Shown here piece by piece: positions 24,234-36,334 of a stretch of DNA of 64,000 bases. The notes beneath the pieces were generated by a model. That model saw nothing but the letters and a program-made list of their open reading frames with translations. It was not told the origin of the DNA and made no database searches. The stretch is from Williamsia maris (lineage in GTDB: Bacteria > Actinomycetota > Actinomycetes > Mycobacteriales > Mycobacteriaceae). The DNA lies in assembly GCF_024171815.1 (NCBI RefSeq), contig NZ_JAMTCJ010000004.1, forward strand, positions 1-64,000, in the 5' to 3' direction. The translations under genes and the position numbers were made by a program. Positions within the stretch are counted from its first letter, which is position 1, and every line of letters starts with the position of its first letter.

Positions 24234-24307
<74 letters not shown>

Positions 24308-24360
24308 CATTGCGGTAGGCGCGCCTTCGGGTCGTAGTCGGCGGAGTCCCGTATTGTTGC

Positions 24361-24390
24361 GTGACACTAAGCCAACTTAGGACCTACACT
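24361..24390 (+). promoter_or_regulatory. Promoter with embedded dyad operator for the four-gene island operon
   Basis: GTGACA (-35-like, 24361-24366) and TACACT (-10-like, 24385-24390) are 18 nt apart. Between them lies the inverted repeat CTAAG-CCAA-CTTAG (24367-24380), an ideal place for a repressor. The methyltransferase ATG follows only 4 nt after the -10 box, with no Shine-Dalgarno sequence, so the message is probably leaderless or nearly so. Confidence 0.55.
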
Positions 24391-24394
24391 GACG

Positions 24395-25222
24395 ATGCTA
24401 GTTGACGCTGCACCGCTGCCCTTTCTGCGTTGGGCAGGCTCGAAGCGATGGCTCACGCCTCGCCTGACGCAACTTATTCCCAGTGACTTCCGGGATTACT
24501 ACGAACCGTTTCTAGGTTCGGGCGCATTATATTTTGCGGCAGCAGAGGGGCACAGGTCGTTTCTGGCGGACCTGATCGACCCGCTAATCGATTGCTTCAC
24601 CGCAGTAAAAGATCATCCCGAGGACGTCGCCGACGCCGCGCGTCGCTGGGCGACGGATAAAACTTCGTTCTACGCCGTAAGAGAACTTCATCCGTCTGAT
24701 CGAATTGAATCCGCTGCGCGTTTCATTTATCTGAACAAGCTCTGCTTCAACGGCCTATATCGAGAAAACCGGTTGGGCGAATTCAACGTTCCATACGGAA
24801 GGCCTAAATCGTCTAACGTTGTTGACACGGCCCATCTCAAGCGTGTCTCCGCCAGATTGTCGCTCGACACTTCCATCCTCGCTAGCGATTTCGAAGAATC
24901 GCTGAGCAACTGCAAAGAAGCCGATTTCGTCTACCTCGATCCACCCTACGTCGATAACGATCGTTTCGTCGACTATAATTCAAAAATCTTCACCACCGAC
25001 GATCAAGAGCGCTTGCGGGTTTGTTTCGAAAAACTCGATCGAAGCGGTGTGTTCTGCATTCTTTCGCTGCCAGACTGTAATCAATTCCGGCAGCAATTTA
25101 GCCGCTATTGGATTATGACGGAAAGCCGATATTCGAGTATGTCTTCGCGCTCTCAAACTCGTGGAAAGACAGGCGAGCTGCTGATCCTGAGTTCATCACT
25201 TAGGCGAAGGCTTGCCCTGTGA
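24395..25222 (+). CDS. D12-class DNA adenine N6-methyltransferase (Dam-like)
   Basis: A 275-aa enzyme transferring methyl from SAM to adenine N6 in DNA. PFLRWAGSKRWL near the N terminus is the Dam-family opening, motif I is EPFLGSGALYF (38-47), IYLNKLCFNGLYRENRLGEFN (111-131) is the D12 signature, and catalytic motif IV is DPPY (182-185). Length is typical for solitary Dam/DpnM-type enzymes. First gene of a four-gene operon with GTGA overlap to the next. Base composition and codon use (many A/T third positions) differ strongly from the chromosome. A self-marking or recognition role for the system is inferred. The recognition sequence cannot be read from the protein; GATC is only a family-based guess. 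Confidence 0.9.
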   Translation: MLVDAAPLPFLRWAGSKRWLTPRLTQLIPSDFRDYYEPFLGSGALYFAAAEGHRSFLADLIDPLIDCFTAVKDHPEDVADAARRWATDKTSFYAVRELHPSDRIESAARFIYLNKLCFNGLYRENRLGEFNVPYGRPKSSNVVDTAHLKRVSARLSLDTSILASDFEESLSNCKEADFVYLDPPYVDNDRFVDYNSKIFTTDDQERLRVCFEKLDRSGVFCILSLPDCNQFRQQFSRYWIMTESRYSSMSSRSQTRGKTGELLILSSSLRRRLAL

Positions 25223-26466
25223 CGAACGTTCGTATGGCCGTTATTTCCGATCTACACGCTGACGAGGGCGTTGAATCAAGACATACCCGAATTCTGTCTG
25301 ACGCGACAGACTACGCCATGGGTGTGGATCCACTAGTTGATCTGCTCGCCTTTGTTGAGTCGGCGGAGCTGCGGGTCGACTACGTTCTGGCACCTGGTGA
25401 CGTGGCTAATCAGGGGAACGCAGTGGGCCTACCCTATGCTTGGCGCAGGCTCAATGACGTCGCGACAAAACTGGGTGCTGACGTTATAGGTACACCGGGA
25501 AACCACGACGTTACTACTCATCAGCCGACGGCCGACATTGCACGGGCGCTGAAGGCGCTGACCCCAAGCTTCCCCGTGCGCGATCAGCGTTCGTCCGACT
25601 TCTTTTGGGACCGTGGATACTTACTCCTCGATCGAGAAGACCACCGAATACTTGTAATCGATTCGACTAAGGGTTTTCCCCATCATCCCGACAAATTTGA
25701 TAGCGACGCCGCTCGGGTGGACTACTATTCTGCAATCGATCGCGGCTACTTCTTGGAGTCTGTTGAGAAACAAATTCGTGACGACTTAGCGTTGTGTAAC
25801 GGAAACAAAGTAAATATTGCCCTTGTTCACCATCACCCGGTTGAACATCAGCTGCGGACGTATCTTCAGGACAGTTACGGCCCGATGCACCGAGGCGGCG
25901 AGCTTGTTAAATTATTGACTGAGACGCCAACGCTGGGCAGATGGGTTGTGGTCCACGGTCACAAACACATTCCCCTTCTTTCGCGATCAACCGCCGTTAG
26001 TGCAGAAGGTCCACTCATTCTCTGCGCTGGCAGCCTCGGTGCGAAGATGTGGGAGCCAGTAGCGAATGTTACCAAAAATCAATTTCACATTCTGGATGCA
26101 TCCAACTTGTATGTGCCCGGTGCTGGGACTATTCGCGGAGTGGTCGAGAGTTATACCTGGAGCTACGGGATCGGGTGGACGGTGTCCGACCGGCTTGGTT
26201 CCGGCCTTCCTGCTGTCGGCGGATTTGGTTGCACAAAGGACCCGGATGAACTCATGAGAGAAATTGCGAGTCTCTTTTCTGAAGGTCGCGGTCGCACAAA
26301 CTTTCTGTATGCCGATATTGTGCGGCAGCTACCTGAGCTCCAGTTTCAGCTTCCTCTCGATCAAGAGGCGTTAGAAAAAAAGCTAGAAGATAACTACGAC
26401 ATCATTTTCACACGAGACCGACAGAATCGCATTTACAATATTTCGAAGAGGGTAGGTGCACGATGA
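25219..26466 (+). CDS. Calcineurin-like metallophosphoesterase of the island operon
   Basis: A 415-aa two-metal phosphoesterase. All five family motifs are present: DLH at 11-13, GDVAN at 60-64, GNHD at 94-97, the HHH at 204-206 and GHKH at 247-250. The C-terminal about 150 residues (after about 260) are a separate, mixed alpha/beta extension with no motif I recognise. Such enzymes cleave phosphodiesters, including DNA ends (Mre11/SbcD) or cyclic nucleotides. The pairing with a P-loop ATPase next door recalls Mre11-Rad50, but the ATPase has no long coiled coil. No signal peptide, so cytoplasmic. GTG start overlaps the methyltransferase stop. Confidence 0.85.
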   Translation: MTNVRMAVISDLHADEGVESRHTRILSDATDYAMGVDPLVDLLAFVESAELRVDYVLAPGDVANQGNAVGLPYAWRRLNDVATKLGADVIGTPGNHDVTTHQPTADIARALKALTPSFPVRDQRSSDFFWDRGYLLLDREDHRILVIDSTKGFPHHPDKFDSDAARVDYYSAIDRGYFLESVEKQIRDDLALCNGNKVNIALVHHHPVEHQLRTYLQDSYGPMHRGGELVKLLTETPTLGRWVVVHGHKHIPLLSRSTAVSAEGPLILCAGSLGAKMWEPVANVTKNQFHILDASNLYVPGAGTIRGVVESYTWSYGIGWTVSDRLGSGLPAVGGFGCTKDPDELMREIASLFSEGRGRTNFLYADIVRQLPELQFQLPLDQEALEKKLEDNYDIIFTRDRQNRIYNISKRVGAR

Positions 26467-28259
26467 ATAGGGGTGCTGCTCCCTTTGGTGCGTTTAACGC
26501 AAAGAAAATGTCGGCCCTGGAGGTCGCATCCAGCTTTGTCGAGCCTCCAGCATTTCGCGCGCTTGCCGGAGTCGATCACTGTTATCTGATCGGGCCGCGT
26601 GGGAGCGGTAAGACGACGCTCTTGAAAATGCTGCAAGGGGAGAGTCTGTCCGCCTGGCAGGGCCGAAACGCCAATGCTGTGCGCGAGCAAGTCCGGTATT
26701 CTGCAATTTTCCTACCTGCCGATGAACTTTGGGCAAGTCAGACAAGCAACTCGAATGGGCACGCTGCGTTCGTCGCGCAAATGCTTTATTCATTTATCGA
26801 AACTGTTCTATACCGGACGGGCGAAACCGAAAGCGACGAAGCTGTTCATTTGCCCGCTAAGCTAACCCCGGAACAAGAGTCCTTGTTTGTACAGCAGTGT
26901 GCAGAAGCTTGGGGGCTTGAACTTCGCACTTACACGCTTATTGGGATGCTTAACGCTATCGATTTATTTCTTTTGCGACTTGTCGACGGGACAGGGCCGG
27001 GCACGCAGCTCGGCGCAGGTGGTGGTATCGCCCTTCTACTGTTTGGGATTAGAGCTTTCAATCGCGTTACTGGGCAACTGAATCACCGCTGGGCGCTTCT
27101 GCTTGACGAGATGGAGATCGCGCCGCGTGCGATTCACGAAGAAGTTGTTGGTTTCGTGAGGGGGGGAGCTGGTAACCTCATCCTAAAGCTTTCGATGAGC
27201 CCATTCGACCGCTACATGCATTCATTCGGCGTGCATGGAGGTCCCATCCCCGGGCACGACTTCCAGACATTCTACCTAACTGGCCTTGCCCGACGGGAAA
27301 TCTGGCGGTTCACCAATGGATTGTGGAACGAGGCGCTGCATTCTCGCGGCCTTGCGCATACGTCGCTTGCCAAGGCGCTCGGCAACTCGCTTATTGTTCA
27401 AGAAAACTCCTTAAGAGACGCCAAGGCGCAAGAAAACGTTTTGAGGCAGGTGCTGCGCCGAGCGGTTGCCGACGATCGGTCCTTTGCGTCTTGGATCGAC
27501 CGGCAGGACATAGATATTGAGTCGTTTGATAACCTAACGTATAATCGGCGGTCTGCTACTTTACGCAAAATATTCCCGCTGCTTGTTTTCAGGCAATCTG
27601 TCATGCGTTTCGTGAATGGCCGGCCGGTCGGTCGTTCTCGGAAGAAAACGTTTGAACCGTTCACGGGCGCGAGTGCCGTCGTGACCGCACTAGAAGGCAA
27701 CCCACGGTGGATTAAGTCTGCTTTCTCTCAAATGTTGGATTACTATGATGAACGTACAAATTCGGTCAGCGCAGGATTCCAGTACGACGCGCTAGATGGA
27801 TTAGCGAACCGATTTGAAGCACTTCTTCGTGTCTTACCCCGGAGAAACGGCGAGCAGACAGATGCGCTTCCAGTGACCGCTCTGGTGGACCGTGTAGCCA
27901 CGTACTTTCATGAGCAAAATACCGCACAGTTTTCGGCCGATCCTCAGAATTGTTTTACGGTTGATGGGAACACGGACTCTACTGTTCTAGATGCGCTTGT
28001 AATGGGCCTTTACGCAGGCGCATTCGTCCAAGTTCGTGACCGTCGAAGCAGCGCTGTGCTGTCGGACTTTAGGGGGCAGCGATTTCGTCTCGCGTACTTG
28101 CTTGGTGTCCGAGAAGGAAAGGAGTTCCCCCTTCGTCTCGGCAAAGACGCTAAGCTTCAATCTATACTGGCCGACTTGTCGAAGCCGCGTCATACGACAC
28201 ATCGAACTGACGAATCGCGCTCTGTAGCACCGGAACAGTTGGGGTTCGACCAAATATGA
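26463..28259 (+). CDS. ORC/Cdc6-like P-loop ATPase of the island operon
   Basis: A 598-aa ATPase. Walker A is GPRGSGKT (44-51) and Walker B LLLDEMEIAP (212-221) with DE at 215-216. The long insert between them includes a hydrophobic stretch around GGGIALLLFGI. NLILKLSMSPFDRY follows shortly after, a plausible sensor 1 position. The C-terminal half (about 330-598) is helical and may hold a winged-helix-like module, as in ORC/Cdc6 and related defence ATPases. No transmembrane segment is certain. ATGA overlap on both sides. I assign it to the ORC-Cdc6-type AAA group by overall layout, with moderate certainty. It is probably the energy-using sensor or loader of the system. Confidence 0.78.
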   Translation: MNRGAAPFGAFNAKKMSALEVASSFVEPPAFRALAGVDHCYLIGPRGSGKTTLLKMLQGESLSAWQGRNANAVREQVRYSAIFLPADELWASQTSNSNGHAAFVAQMLYSFIETVLYRTGETESDEAVHLPAKLTPEQESLFVQQCAEAWGLELRTYTLIGMLNAIDLFLLRLVDGTGPGTQLGAGGGIALLLFGIRAFNRVTGQLNHRWALLLDEMEIAPRAIHEEVVGFVRGGAGNLILKLSMSPFDRYMHSFGVHGGPIPGHDFQTFYLTGLARREIWRFTNGLWNEALHSRGLAHTSLAKALGNSLIVQENSLRDAKAQENVLRQVLRRAVADDRSFASWIDRQDIDIESFDNLTYNRRSATLRKIFPLLVFRQSVMRFVNGRPVGRSRKKTFEPFTGASAVVTALEGNPRWIKSAFSQMLDYYDERTNSVSAGFQYDALDGLANRFEALLRVLPRRNGEQTDALPVTALVDRVATYFHEQNTAQFSADPQNCFTVDGNTDSTVLDALVMGLYAGAFVQVRDRRSSAVLSDFRGQRFRLAYLLGVREGKEFPLRLGKDAKLQSILADLSKPRHTTHRTDESRSVAPEQLGFDQI

Positions 28260-29146
28260 GGATAGAAGACCGTGTATTCGACCGGCGTGAGACCTTCGAC
28301 GTCTTTATAGCTAGCTGTGGTTACGAAACTCGTTCAAGTTACTGTTGTCGTCTCGGGGTACAGGCGTTGGAAAAAATTGCGCTAACCTACGGTGATGATG
28401 CGCCAGGGGCAGTTCTCAGAAATATGCAAGAATATACAGAGGCTGACTGGGTTTTGTTGGATGCCGAATGGTTCTGTTCAAGCTTGGGTGAAAATAGTTT
28501 GGCCGAAAAACGCGTCGCGGTGGACATTAGCAGCATGCCGCGCCGCGTTTTGGGGAATGTAACGCGAAGCGCCGTTGCGTCGAATGCATCTTCCATTACG
28601 TTTGTCTACTGTCCTGCCAGTTACGGTGCGAGTGCAGCGGTCGCACAGCAGGCAGATGTCCTGAGTGCGGGACCACTGGGGCCCGACTTTCGTGGTCCGC
28701 TTCGGCCATCTTCGCTGCCGATATCTCTCATTGTTGGCCTTGGCTTGGAACCTTATCGCGCTCTCGGAATCATCGAATTGGTGGAGCCAGCTAGGACTTG
28801 GGCCTTTTCGGCTACGAGTGACGACTCGCGCTTTTCTCAAGGTGCGCAAGCAGTAAACCGGCCTTTGGTGACCAGTCTACAGGGAAAACCTATATACCAG
28901 TATGACATTCATTCGCTTGCAGATACTTACCTGGCGCTTGATTCACTATGCTTTTCGCTTTCGTCGGATTCTCGAGTACTTCTAGCTCCGTCGGGTCCCA
29001 AGGTATTCAGTCTCGCATGCATCCTAGTTTCGCTTTACTCAAAACAACCAGCGCCTGCGGTCTGGCGAGTGGGTGGTAAAGGGGGGTGGATGGGAATTGA
29101 TGTGATGGAATCTGGGGAGGTCATTGCCTATACGCTGATTCCGTAG
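28256..29146 (+). CDS. Island operon protein of unknown family (SCGYETRS / DISSMPR motifs)
   Basis: A 296-aa protein I cannot place in a named family. It looks alpha/beta (Rossmannoid). FDVFIASCGYETRSSY (14-29) reads as a first strand with a ligand loop, and VAVDISSMPRRVLG (88-100) as a second strand with a D-x-S-S-x-x-R loop, followed by ITFVYCPASYG. The second loop is reminiscent in layout of the D-[IV]-T-x-G-x-K loop in CARF-type nucleotide sensors, but this is only a resemblance. Three Cys lie within residues 21-31. No signal peptide or membrane helix. The start overlaps the ATPase stop (ATGA), and it is the last gene of the operon. Base composition is low-GC like its partners. Confidence 0.7.
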   Translation: MRIEDRVFDRRETFDVFIASCGYETRSSYCCRLGVQALEKIALTYGDDAPGAVLRNMQEYTEADWVLLDAEWFCSSLGENSLAEKRVAVDISSMPRRVLGNVTRSAVASNASSITFVYCPASYGASAAVAQQADVLSAGPLGPDFRGPLRPSSLPISLIVGLGLEPYRALGIIELVEPARTWAFSATSDDSRFSQGAQAVNRPLVTSLQGKPIYQYDIHSLADTYLALDSLCFSLSSDSRVLLAPSGPKVFSLACILVSLYSKQPAPAVWRVGGKGGWMGIDVMESGEVIAYTLIP

Positions 29147-29328
29147 GCATTTTCAGCTATTACTGAGATGTTTTTGCTATCGTGTGCCCGGTAGCCTCGA
29201 TGGCCTGCGGATGGTTGGATGTACTAGATCGTTGCGACCATCTGCCGGAATAGAAACCTTTAGTAGGTGACAGCTTTTTATTGTCAGCAGCTCTTAGCAA
29301 TGGGCAATTGAGGCGCGGGCTTGCCATC
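29147..29328. other. Non-coding right flank of the island
   Basis: 182 bp, AT-rich at the left and returning to high GC near 29310. I find no gene, no integrase remnant and no copy of the tRNA-Pro 3' end. A short imperfect hairpin (GTGACAG...CTTTTTATTGTCAG, about 29265-29290) may terminate the operon. Confidence 0.5.
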
Positions 29329-30144
29329 TCACCCGCGCTCGTACGGCGTCTTCTCGCCTGAATGGACGGCGAACGGCAGATGGTTGCCGGCCGGGGGAAG
29401 CGGGCAGGTCGCGAAATCGATAAAAGCGCAGGGCAGATTGACCGCTCGGTTGAAGTCGACGGTCACCGCACCGCCATCGCGAATGGTCTCGTCTGACGCG
29501 TCGACAGCGAGACTGCGATTGGCTGCATAGGTGGTCACTCCCGACGTCTCGTCGGTGAAGAGCACGCTCAGTCCGCCGTCTTTGCCGTTGAACGCAACCA
29601 GACGGTGTTCGTCGCCGCCGTGCTCGATGACCAGCACCCCCGGCGAGACGTACACGTGCGCAAGTCCCTCGGCGACCGCCCCCACGGTGACGGGCTCCGG
29701 CTCGGGGTAGCGCTCGAAACGTGCGTCGATCGCCCACGACCGGTCAGCGGGGTAGGCGGGCACGCCGCGAAAGTCACGAATCGTCGGGGCGGAGTCGTCG
29801 TGGACGCGGATCAGGTATCCGTCGCCGCGGCGGGCTACTTCGATATGGTGTCCGTCGACGTCGACGACCTCACCCGGACCCGTTGGGTGCAGTTCGAACT
29901 GGCGCGCTGAGAACGTCTCGTCCTTGCTGGGTGCAAGGTGCGCAACCGACCCCTCGTACCACCAAGACCCGGGTAGTTCATCAAACCGACCGGGCTCGGT
30001 GTCGAGCCACTCCAAACGGTTGATCGACAGCCATCCGCCGGGCATCCCGAGAGTCTGTTTTCGAGCGTGGTGCCACTTCTCCCAGTCGGCCGCGAAGCTG
30101 TCCGCTGCGGCGGTGCCGCTATCTGTCGTGATGGTCGTGGTCAT
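29329..30144 (-). CDS. DUF1684 family protein
   Basis: A 271-aa cytoplasmic protein with the DUF1684 hallmarks: N-terminal FAADWEKWHHARKQTLGMPGG followed by WLSINRLEWLD, a central beta-rich region, and the conserved ending VNLPCAFIDFATCPLPPAGN then LPFAVHSGEKTPYE. The family is widespread and uncharacterised. ATG 30144 is chosen over longer starts because AGGAG lies 5 nt upstream. It is the first gene of normal composition right of the island, so the island boundary lies between 29146 and its stop. Confidence 0.85.
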   Translation of the reverse strand: MTTTITTDSGTAAADSFAADWEKWHHARKQTLGMPGGWLSINRLEWLDTEPGRFDELPGSWWYEGSVAHLAPSKDETFSARQFELHPTGPGEVVDVDGHHIEVARRGDGYLIRVHDDSAPTIRDFRGVPAYPADRSWAIDARFERYPEPEPVTVGAVAEGLAHVYVSPGVLVIEHGGDEHRLVAFNGKDGGLSVLFTDETSGVTTYAANRSLAVDASDETIRDGGAVTVDFNRAVNLPCAFIDFATCPLPPAGNHLPFAVHSGEKTPYERG

Positions 30145-33731: not shown

Positions 33732-33811
33732 GACCCATCTGTGGAGCGGTGTCGTGCGAACGCGCGGGTTTCTTGATCGTTAGTCGACGGCGAGGGGTCG
33801 CTGACTGTATG

Positions 33812-35515: not shown

Positions 35516-36334
35516 CTAGGACTGCTCTTTCGAGCACCACCAGGTGGTCCGGCCGCCGACTGTGCCGCGCTTCATCGGCGCACCGCACCGCGGGCATGAT
35601 GCATCGGCGTGCCGGAACGGGATGATCTCGCCGGTGTGGACGCCGCCCTTGCGGATGGCCGACCGCGTGCAGCGTCGCAGAACTCGACGTAGCTCGTCTG
35701 CCTCGTCGACGTCGAGTGTCTTGGCCCGTCGTGACGGTGAGATGGCCGACTGCCACAGCACCTCGTCGGCCAGCAGGTTGCCGATGCCGGCGATCGCGTT
35801 CTGGTCGAGCAACCGGGCCTTCAGTGGCGCGGCGCTGGCGGCGATCATCGTGCGGAACTCGTCGCGGTCCATCTCGGCGGCGTCAGTGCCCAGGGCGTCG
35901 ATGTCGGGTTCCAACCGGACGCGGCCGAGCCGGCGCTTGTCGAACAGTCGCAGCTGGCCGCCGTCGTCGAAGGTCATCGAGAACCGCGTCCACTCCGGCT
36001 TGTCGGTGTCGCGCTCGCCGACATGTGGGTCACCACCGCCATAGCGTGACGACTCGTCGCCGTCCGGGGCGGTGACGATGATGCGGCCACCCATGCCGAG
36101 ATGGATGCCGAGGGTGGGACCGGGCGAGCCGTCGGCGGTCTCGGTCTCACACCACATCGCCTTGCCGCGCCGGTTCGCCGCAGTGAGTCGGCCACCGACG
36201 AGAGCGTCGGCGATCTCGCCGGGCCGATGCGGGCGGCATTCGTACTCGTCGTTGTCGTCGATCTCGGTGATGGTGCGGTCTAACGCTTTTTCGACGACTT
36301 GTCGCGCGTTCTCGACCTCGGGAAGTTCGGGCAC
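35516..36334 (-). CDS. Fpg/Nei-family DNA glycosylase
   Basis: A 272-aa base-excision repair enzyme. GTG start gives PELPEVE right after the initiator, so Pro1 can be the catalytic nucleophile; the H2TH motif is LLDQNAIAGIGNLLADEVLWQS, and GGVHTGEIIPFRHADASC leads into the zinc finger. That finger reads C-x2-C-x16-C-x2-E: the fourth cysteine is replaced by Glu (CSKEQS end), so zinc binding may be altered. The dedA gene ends 1 nt upstream, so both are one minus-strand unit. Oxidised purine or pyrimidine specificity is not certain. Confidence 0.88.
   Translation of the reverse strand: MPELPEVENARQVVEKALDRTITEIDDNDEYECRPHRPGEIADALVGGRLTAANRRGKAMWCETETADGSPGPTLGIHLGMGGRIIVTAPDGDESSRYGGGDPHVGERDTDKPEWTRFSMTFDDGGQLRLFDKRRLGRVRLEPDIDALGTDAAEMDRDEFRTMIAASAAPLKARLLDQNAIAGIGNLLADEVLWQSAISPSRRAKTLDVDEADELRRVLRRCTRSAIRKGGVHTGEIIPFRHADASCPRCGAPMKRGTVGGRTTWWCSKEQS

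Follow-up and report, generated by a model that had tools for sequence, protein, structure and literature searches.

Calcineurin- and phosphoribosyltransferase (PRTase)-based systems ('Calcineurin-CE' type) were reportedly introduced by Burroughs and Aravind (J Bacteriol 2020), and the Pfam names wHTH-Calcineurin_assc (wHTH, winged helix-turn-helix), ORC-CDC6-like and PRTase-CE presumably come from that paper. In bacteriophage exclusion (BREX), another described system whose parts invite comparison with the locus studied here, BrxC has been placed in the ORC/Cdc6 clade and PglZ is a metal-dependent nuclease, according to PMC12839542. Here, we describe a four-gene operon of Williamsia maris (assembly GCF_024171815.1, contig NZ_JAMTCJ010000004.1, positions 1-64,000, the 64,000-nucleotide stretch that we call the window), which lies at 24395-29146 with all genes on the plus strand:

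24395-25222, plus strand: gene 1, Dam-family (D12) DNA adenine-N6 methyltransferase, predicted GATC specificity, 275 amino acids, ATG start (PF02086, TIGR00571)
25219-26466, plus strand: gene 2, calcineurin-like metallophosphoesterase with C-terminal wHTH, 415 amino acids, GTG start (PF00149, PF24408)
26463-28259, plus strand: gene 3, ORC/CDC6-like AAA+ ATPase, 598 amino acids, ATG start (PF24389)
28256-29146, plus strand: gene 4, CARF6-family protein, predicted Rossmann-like CARF/SAVED-type fold, 296 amino acids, ATG start (PADLOC CARF6, structure model)

We consider it fairly probable that the operon is a mobile, modification-guided anti-invader system. An alignment scan of a named-genome collection with gene 3 returned at least 73 loci, a sample, from the Actinomycetota, Pseudomonadota, Bacteroidota, Acidobacteriota, Planctomycetota, Verrucomicrobiota, Gemmatimonadota and SAR324. 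Profile searches of the open reading frames (ORFs) at 73 listed loci found the phosphoesterase in 72 and CARF6 in 72, and the order phosphoesterase, ORC-like ATPase, CARF6 held throughout, barring contigs cut inside the operon (L074, L106). Homologues are mostly 20-30% identical to the window proteins, so this gene order has been kept over long divergence. Co-occurrence in unrelated genomes was a check set beforehand in an earlier note on this DNA, and its result supports that note's claim that the four genes act together, which had been drawn from overlaps of four nucleotides. The ORF map of the window bears out the coordinates, the plus strand and the three gene-gene junctions, each with exactly 4 nucleotides in common; a start codon giving this overlap occurs at 14 of 58, 43 of 74 and 29 of 75 loci at the three junctions, respectively (window included). 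The overlap alone is weak evidence, and the conserved co-occurrence is strong evidence. Among 72,556 plasmid records, tblastn with gene 3 gave five matches, all below 60% identity, and gene 4 gave four, all among the same five; three of four plasmid loci read hold all four genes in order, and the Pseudoalteromonas locus (L004) lacks the Dam gene. A PF24389 search of the class matched 70 of 394 genomes, mostly through short P-loop matches, from which three full-length proteins (window, L006, L007) and one fragment (L009) were kept. Downstream of the operon on a Methylobacterium plasmid lie a second metallophosphoesterase and a CHAT protein that matches TPR-S weakly (L005:9397-12869).

The methyltransferase is the component that comes and goes, and its absence is tied to the host genome. 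Among the 73 listed loci, a Dam-type gene lies directly upstream in 55 and an insert-bearing D12 enzyme directly upstream in three (L043, L044, L047); Dam lies just downstream in two (L053, L102) and 3 kb off in one (L088), nine have none and three are on cut contigs. All 73 host genomes were searched with NF008152, which we take to be the E. coli Dam model, and operon matches were told apart from others by coordinates (for L039 and L055 the listed match was their own operon Dam and was reassigned by hand); the model scored above its cut-off in 1 of 14 control genomes. The METHYLTRANSFERASE pattern that emerges is that hosts of Dam-less operons carry another Dam in nine of nine cases among the listed loci (190-447 bits), whereas another Dam match of at least 60 bits is present in only 3 of the 61 hosts whose operon comes with a methyltransferase, counting 60 listed loci plus the window (Fisher p=3.4e-9, ancestry ignored). 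A quick gene 3 tree of 77 rows, 70 of them scored, requires four changes of the trait, and almost all of 200 random pairings gave agreement in four of four independent pairs; for rough orientation, a second Dam occurs in 12 of 70 hosts, a proportion of 0.17 whose fourth power is about 0.001. Left out of the trait count were three cut contigs, L040 (whose genome has a Dam match), L074 and L077 (whose genomes have none), and L088, where a Dam is near but not adjacent and another lies elsewhere; for the plasmid loci L002, L004 and L005 there is no host genome that could be scored, and L003 (a copy of L062), L006, L007 and L009 stand outside the tree. L077 is a 4.6-kb contig binned as Nitrosomonadales whose gene 3 falls very near that of L070 (Alteromonadaceae) on the tree, and it is possibly misbinned.

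Two Dam-positive groups were searched as well, giving matches in 6 of 394 and 6 of 395 genomes (the sets may overlap), and seven further operons from such groups all lack a methyltransferase, each in a genome with Dam (379-419 bits). Pooled, the contrast is 16 of 16 versus 3 of 61, with five changes on the tree, and five pairs agree on the best tree and four on well-supported branches; because the added operons were sought in Dam-positive groups on purpose, the 16 of 16 is not independent, and the nine of nine is the primary count. Within 4 kb of 17 Dam-less operons, as far as the contigs reach, no ORF of at least 150 amino acids has the motif [DNS]PP[YFW]. In every scored calcineurin-type host, either a D12 methyltransferase is encoded in cis or a Dam in trans. 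We regard this Dam-substitution pattern as a new result of this analysis; it lends indirect support to the self/non-self discrimination suggested in the earlier note, and nothing was seen in favor of DNA-end processing, its other suggestion.

The catalytic residues of the operon proteins are conserved. Gene 1 matches PF02086 (E=9e-45) and TIGR00571 (203 bits against a cut-off of 115), and its DPPY motif lies at 24938-24949 with D182 as the aspartate. Its nearest solved structure is DpnM (2dpm, E=1e-42), followed by the DNA adenine methylase 4gol (E=1.1e-25) and others of the E. coli Dam type. We take DpnM and Dam to be GATC-specific, and we presume that R124, N120, P134, Y138 and position 9 are the recognition residues of Dam; equivalents of the first three are retained in 62, 62 and 60 of 62 operon Dams, respectively. 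In three alphaproteobacterial operons the D12 enzyme that stands in Dam's place bears a large insert (L043:6653-8092, L044:7477-8793, L047:7402-8772); these enzymes have different residues at most aligned recognition positions, and the L044 copy as query found no solved relative at E<=0.01. Gene 2 has a complete dimetal site (D11, H13, G60-D61, G94-N95-H96-D97, H204, G247-H248, H250), invariant in 52 aligned rows, with the GNHD motif at 25498-25509 and the wHTH (PF24408) at about 26221-26388. Among PADLOC and NCBIfam models its closest single match is DS9_1_antiphage (E=1.1e-8, at 34 bits against a cut-off of 420), and the sole PADLOC BREX model matched by any of the four proteins is PglX, matched by gene 2 (E=0.028). 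Gene 3 matches PF24389 over its full length (E=1.2e-81, 275.7 bits against a cut-off of 27), and its Walker A (26592-26615, including K50) and Walker B (27105-27110) residues are invariant in 46 aligned rows. Thus D182 and K50 are the catalytic residues that had been named for genes 1 and 3; the H97 named for gene 2 needs correction, as position 97 is an aspartate and the histidine is residue 96.

The folds of genes 3 and 4 were compared by Foldseek using predicted structures. The gene 3 model (predicted local distance difference test, pLDDT, 88.3) has among its top five matches yeast ORC, a BREX complex chain, a maltose-regulator structure and RdrA, with modest template modeling (TM) scores; the BREX match, ranked second, is to one chain of the BrxC/BrxB/PglZ complex 9zll (TM 0.25), the chain's protein not being specified. 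At the P-loop of gene 3 the closest single PADLOC/NCBIfam match is mad8 (E=1.3e-4). Gene 4, for which the Pfam profile scan gave no family, has hits to seven PADLOC CARF6 models (E<=0.0015; best E=7.3e-41); together with the predicted model, these matches led us to reject its earlier description as an unknown protein. That model has a mean pLDDT of 94.2, and its Foldseek ranking places three human KCC transporters first (low TM), then Csm6 (CARF) and Cap5 (SAVED, from the cyclic oligonucleotide-based antiphage signaling system, CBASS), with Cam1, Cdn1 and Can2 lower down; fatty acid synthase and cysteine desulfhydrase, unrelated proteins of the Rossmann type, are intermixed. E-values for Csm6, Cap5 and Cam1 run from 6e-4 to 2e-3 with low TM-scores, and the Cap5 alignment spans about 300 columns, yet at TM 0.40-0.44 and a root-mean-square deviation near 12 A. 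Taking Foldseek and the sequence match together, we read gene 4 as having a CARF/SAVED-like fold and predict that it is a nucleotide-ligand sensor; D90, Y118, G163, G247, P248 and K249 are invariant in 54 rows.

In a sister branch, the ATPase and CARF6 families and their order are unchanged, and a PRTase-CE gene (PF24390) replaces the phosphoesterase. It was found in the actinobacterial loci L006 and L007, in whose genomes no Dam match was seen, and ten such operons were inspected: L159 and L160 (which are L006 and L007 with longer flanks) and the plasmid loci L194-L201. In the eight plasmid loci, a PRTase profile built from five operons matches all eight, the ATPase is present in all eight (in L201 annotated as two pieces) and the CARF6 profile finds gene 4 in seven, L199 giving no match at E<=1e-3. 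An adjacent DNA amino-methyltransferase of other families than Dam occurs in 7 of the 10 operons: Pfam supports it in six, namely L195-L199 and, barely over the cut-off, L160, and the record annotation supports it in L200, where it follows CARF6; in addition, the upstream gene in L201 has an SPPY motif, and no methyltransferase was seen at L159 or L194. The idea that a methyltransferase goes only with the phosphoesterase was therefore dropped, as this branch has methyltransferases too. Three carry NPPY/NPPF motifs and five SPPY, and by the motif rule some may be N4-cytosine enzymes. Thus the ATPase-CARF6 pair is constant, and effector and methyltransferase are exchanged. PRTase-type plasmid matches comprise 148 records, 129 from Klebsiella and 133 typed conjugative, mostly partial (28% query coverage in the rows listed); of 5,426 E. 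coli genomes, 4 carry the one Klebsiella plasmid operon that was read, in each case on a plasmid in a C600 or J53 strain. Nucleotide-metabolism genes stand beside copies of both branches, namely, MazG and a dCTP deaminase-like gene (L002:9741-10867), thyX (L196:715-1626, L197:7307-8260) and a dUTPase (L200:2374-3039).

In the window, the operon lies in a block bounded by a tRNA gene:

24234-24308, plus strand: tRNA-Pro (ggg), found by ARAGORN, its 3' end being the left boundary of the insert
24309-29328, no strand assigned: foreign insert of 5.0 kb carrying the four-gene operon, defined by the near-empty site in congener G004, a G+C content of 0.529 and the ORFs

The insert has a G+C content of 52.9%, against 67.8% for the window outside 24309-29328; genes 1 to 4 have 0.521, 0.527, 0.538 and 0.524, and third codon positions have 0.49-0.57, against 0.86-0.89 in four flanking genes. 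GATC sites are denser in the flanks (8.7 per kb) than in the insert (4.8 per kb), as raw figures without correction for composition. The tRNA-Pro site was compared in three of seven congeners (G001, G004 at locus L171, and G005), two of which break homology at 24309 and a third at 24308. In G004 the tRNA-Pro end is followed by 76 bp and then by homology from window position 29329, the DUF1684 gene (PF07920); G001 and G005 diverge at 24309, G001 regaining homology 127 bp later only at window position 33760 and G005 having another insert of about 4.75 kb, after which homology returns at window position 35517. As species differ in content at the tRNA-Pro end, the operon sits in a 5.0-kb insert at a variable tRNA-end site. 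The G005 insert (L169:2591-7342) holds a 1327-amino-acid gene whose C-terminal part matches PADLOC PDC-M60C (E=7e-21) and whose N terminus looks PRTase-like by eye; the tRNA-Pro 3' end is a possible hotspot for conflict genes. Among 101 genomes (100 relatives and that of the window), gene 4 was found in just one, that of the window. Composition, the near-empty site in one relative and this solitary presence support the claim of the earlier note that the block is foreign. The four operon genes include no integrase or recombinase, a scan that did not take in the minus-strand ORFs of 85-123 amino acids in the insert. Integration directed by the tRNA with a direct repeat of its end was rejected, as none was found among 20 of 26 repeat families, and so was a phage origin, given the lack of phage matches for genes 3 and 4 described below.

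We propose that gene 1 would methylate adenine, as we predict in GATC, and so place a self mark on the host genome, and that gene 3, as an ORC/BrxC-like AAA+ ring, would bind or scan DNA. Gene 2, a metal-dependent phosphoesterase with a wHTH, would be the effector, most likely a DNA nuclease rather than a nucleotide phosphodiesterase, and gene 4, as a CARF/SAVED-like ligand sensor, would gate activation; DNA is favored as the target because gene 2 has a wHTH and the ATPase is ORC-like. The core of genes 2-4 would thereby attack DNA without the mark and spare methylated host DNA, and as it would act on unmarked DNA, it would need GATC methylation of the genome, by either its own Dam or that of the host. 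If this is true, housekeeping Dam methylation doubles as the self mark of an invader-killing system, and the core defense module could settle without its own methyltransferase in Dam-positive bacteria, not in others, which would predict host range and explain the gene-absence pattern across phyla. Modification-based immunity would also be linked to CARF/SAVED ligand sensing.

The main rival, which we hold to be unlikely, is a nucleotide-signaling immunity in which gene 2 hydrolyzes a cyclic nucleotide or the nucleotide pool, with the CARF protein as sensor of the signal and the methyltransferase in an accessory role (regulation or restriction escape). By sequence, gene 2 is nearer to Lmo2642 and Rv0805, its nearest solved relatives, than to SbcD, and we take both of these to be cyclic-nucleotide-active enzymes; the CARF/SAVED-like fold of gene 4, the PRTase in the gene 2 slot of the sister branch and the nucleotide-metabolism genes adjoining some loci (L002, L196, L197, L200) fit such signaling too. 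It leaves unexplained, however, why in the sample scored the operon methyltransferase is absent only from Dam-positive hosts and why several methyltransferase types fill one role. Alternatively, methylated GATC might not block the core but be read by it as a signal that activates or positions it, for example through hemimethylation at replication forks. The presence of D12 in cis or Dam in trans in all scored calcineurin-type hosts fits any methylation requirement, but self-marking has its precedent in restriction-modification and would be the more parsimonious account, and we think the signal version improbable. We give slightly less credence still to a maintenance module of a mobile element, kept by addiction through methylation and with no defense role: the near-empty site at a tRNA 3' end and the copies on plasmids would suit it, whereas the lack of an integrase or recombinase among the four genes and the occurrence of the operon in contigs of many phyla with differing neighbors would not.

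Besides the kinship of gene 2 with Lmo2642 and Rv0805, several observations weigh against the modification-guided anti-invader system that we favor. The GATC specificity of gene 1 is predicted from homology, and among the 62 operon Dams position 9 is R, not K, in 56 and the Y138 position is gapped in 30. An operon Dam and another Dam of at least 60 bits occur together in L055, L100 and L104, and likewise in L088, which was left out; upstream sequence is short in two of the nine Dam-less loci (496 bp in L070 and 641 bp in L092); and the ancestry-aware test has four to five events, with weak deep branches and a sign test that is not significant (p=0.125, the lowest value attainable with so few events). 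Genes 3 and 4 were unmatched in 50,697 phage records, and two IMG/VR scans gave no confirmed match for gene 3. The comparison of defense neighbors, with 72 PADLOC families in 122 near proteins against 39 in 122 far ones at E<=1e-10 (families, not proteins, being counted), is not decisive, and the defense-island setting raised in the earlier note is suggestive only. At E<=1e-3 neither SMODS nor Cas10-palm2 is matched in the window's genome, and so no maker of a CARF ligand was found in it; among 42 host genomes searched, SMODS matched in 7, and Cas10-palm2 gave scattered short matches in 19, 11 above the cut-off, which look like other palm domains and which we take for GGDEF-type domains. According to PMC12839542, moreover, PglZ activation in BREX is not directly tied to DNA modification, which weakens the BREX analogy.

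This set of parts was not found described in the open literature searched (a search that took in neither Makarova et al. 2020 nor the 2020 paper of Burroughs and Aravind, both likely sources), nor in the excerpted texts of PMC8195603, PMC7159879, PMC4012209 and PMC10853773. The statement that no named system has these parts holds insofar as no PADLOC or NCBIfam model set covers all four; the domain families themselves are already named and catalogued in Pfam (PF24389, PF24408, PF24390), and they were probably predicted in the 2020 paper of Burroughs and Aravind. The operon resembles BREX in its adenine methyltransferase, metal-dependent phosphoesterase-type effector and ORC/Cdc6-clade AAA+ ATPase, and differs in having a Dam-type enzyme, not PglX, a calcineurin fold, not the PglZ fold, and an added CARF6 protein, in about 4.8 kb in total. 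Its proteins match no BrxA, BrxB, BrxL or PglZ family, the BREX likeness of gene 3 being at the fold level only, and the operon is not BREX because no PglZ, PglX, BrxA, BrxB or BrxL was shown. The kinship of gene 1 with DpnM recalls type II restriction-modification (DpnII), to which the operon does not belong because no restriction endonuclease family was found among the four proteins in Pfam, PADLOC and NCBIfam scans. The gene 4 model matches Csm6, Cam1 and Can2 (CARF), as in type III CRISPR (clustered regularly interspaced short palindromic repeats), and Cap5 (SAVED), as in CBASS, but the operon has neither a fused effector nor a cyclase, the window's genome lacks the SMODS and Cas10-palm2 matches noted above, and the operon is neither CBASS nor type III CRISPR. 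It is like the PRTase-CE/ORC-CDC6-like operons (PF24390, PF24389) in ATPase and CARF6 families, in gene order and in the usual adjacency of a methyltransferase; it differs in having a phosphoesterase in place of the PRTase and a methyltransferase of the Dam type, not the N6_Mtase or N6_N4_Mtase type. We tentatively suggest, as a broader idea about which we are more doubtful than about the operon itself, that these operons may form a widespread, as yet unnamed immune family centered on an ORC-type ATPase and a CARF/SAVED-like sensor, in which effector and methyltransferase are exchangeable and the methyltransferase can be dropped where the host makes the mark, uniting methylation-based self-marking, as in restriction-modification and BREX, with ligand-gated effectors, as in CBASS and type III CRISPR.

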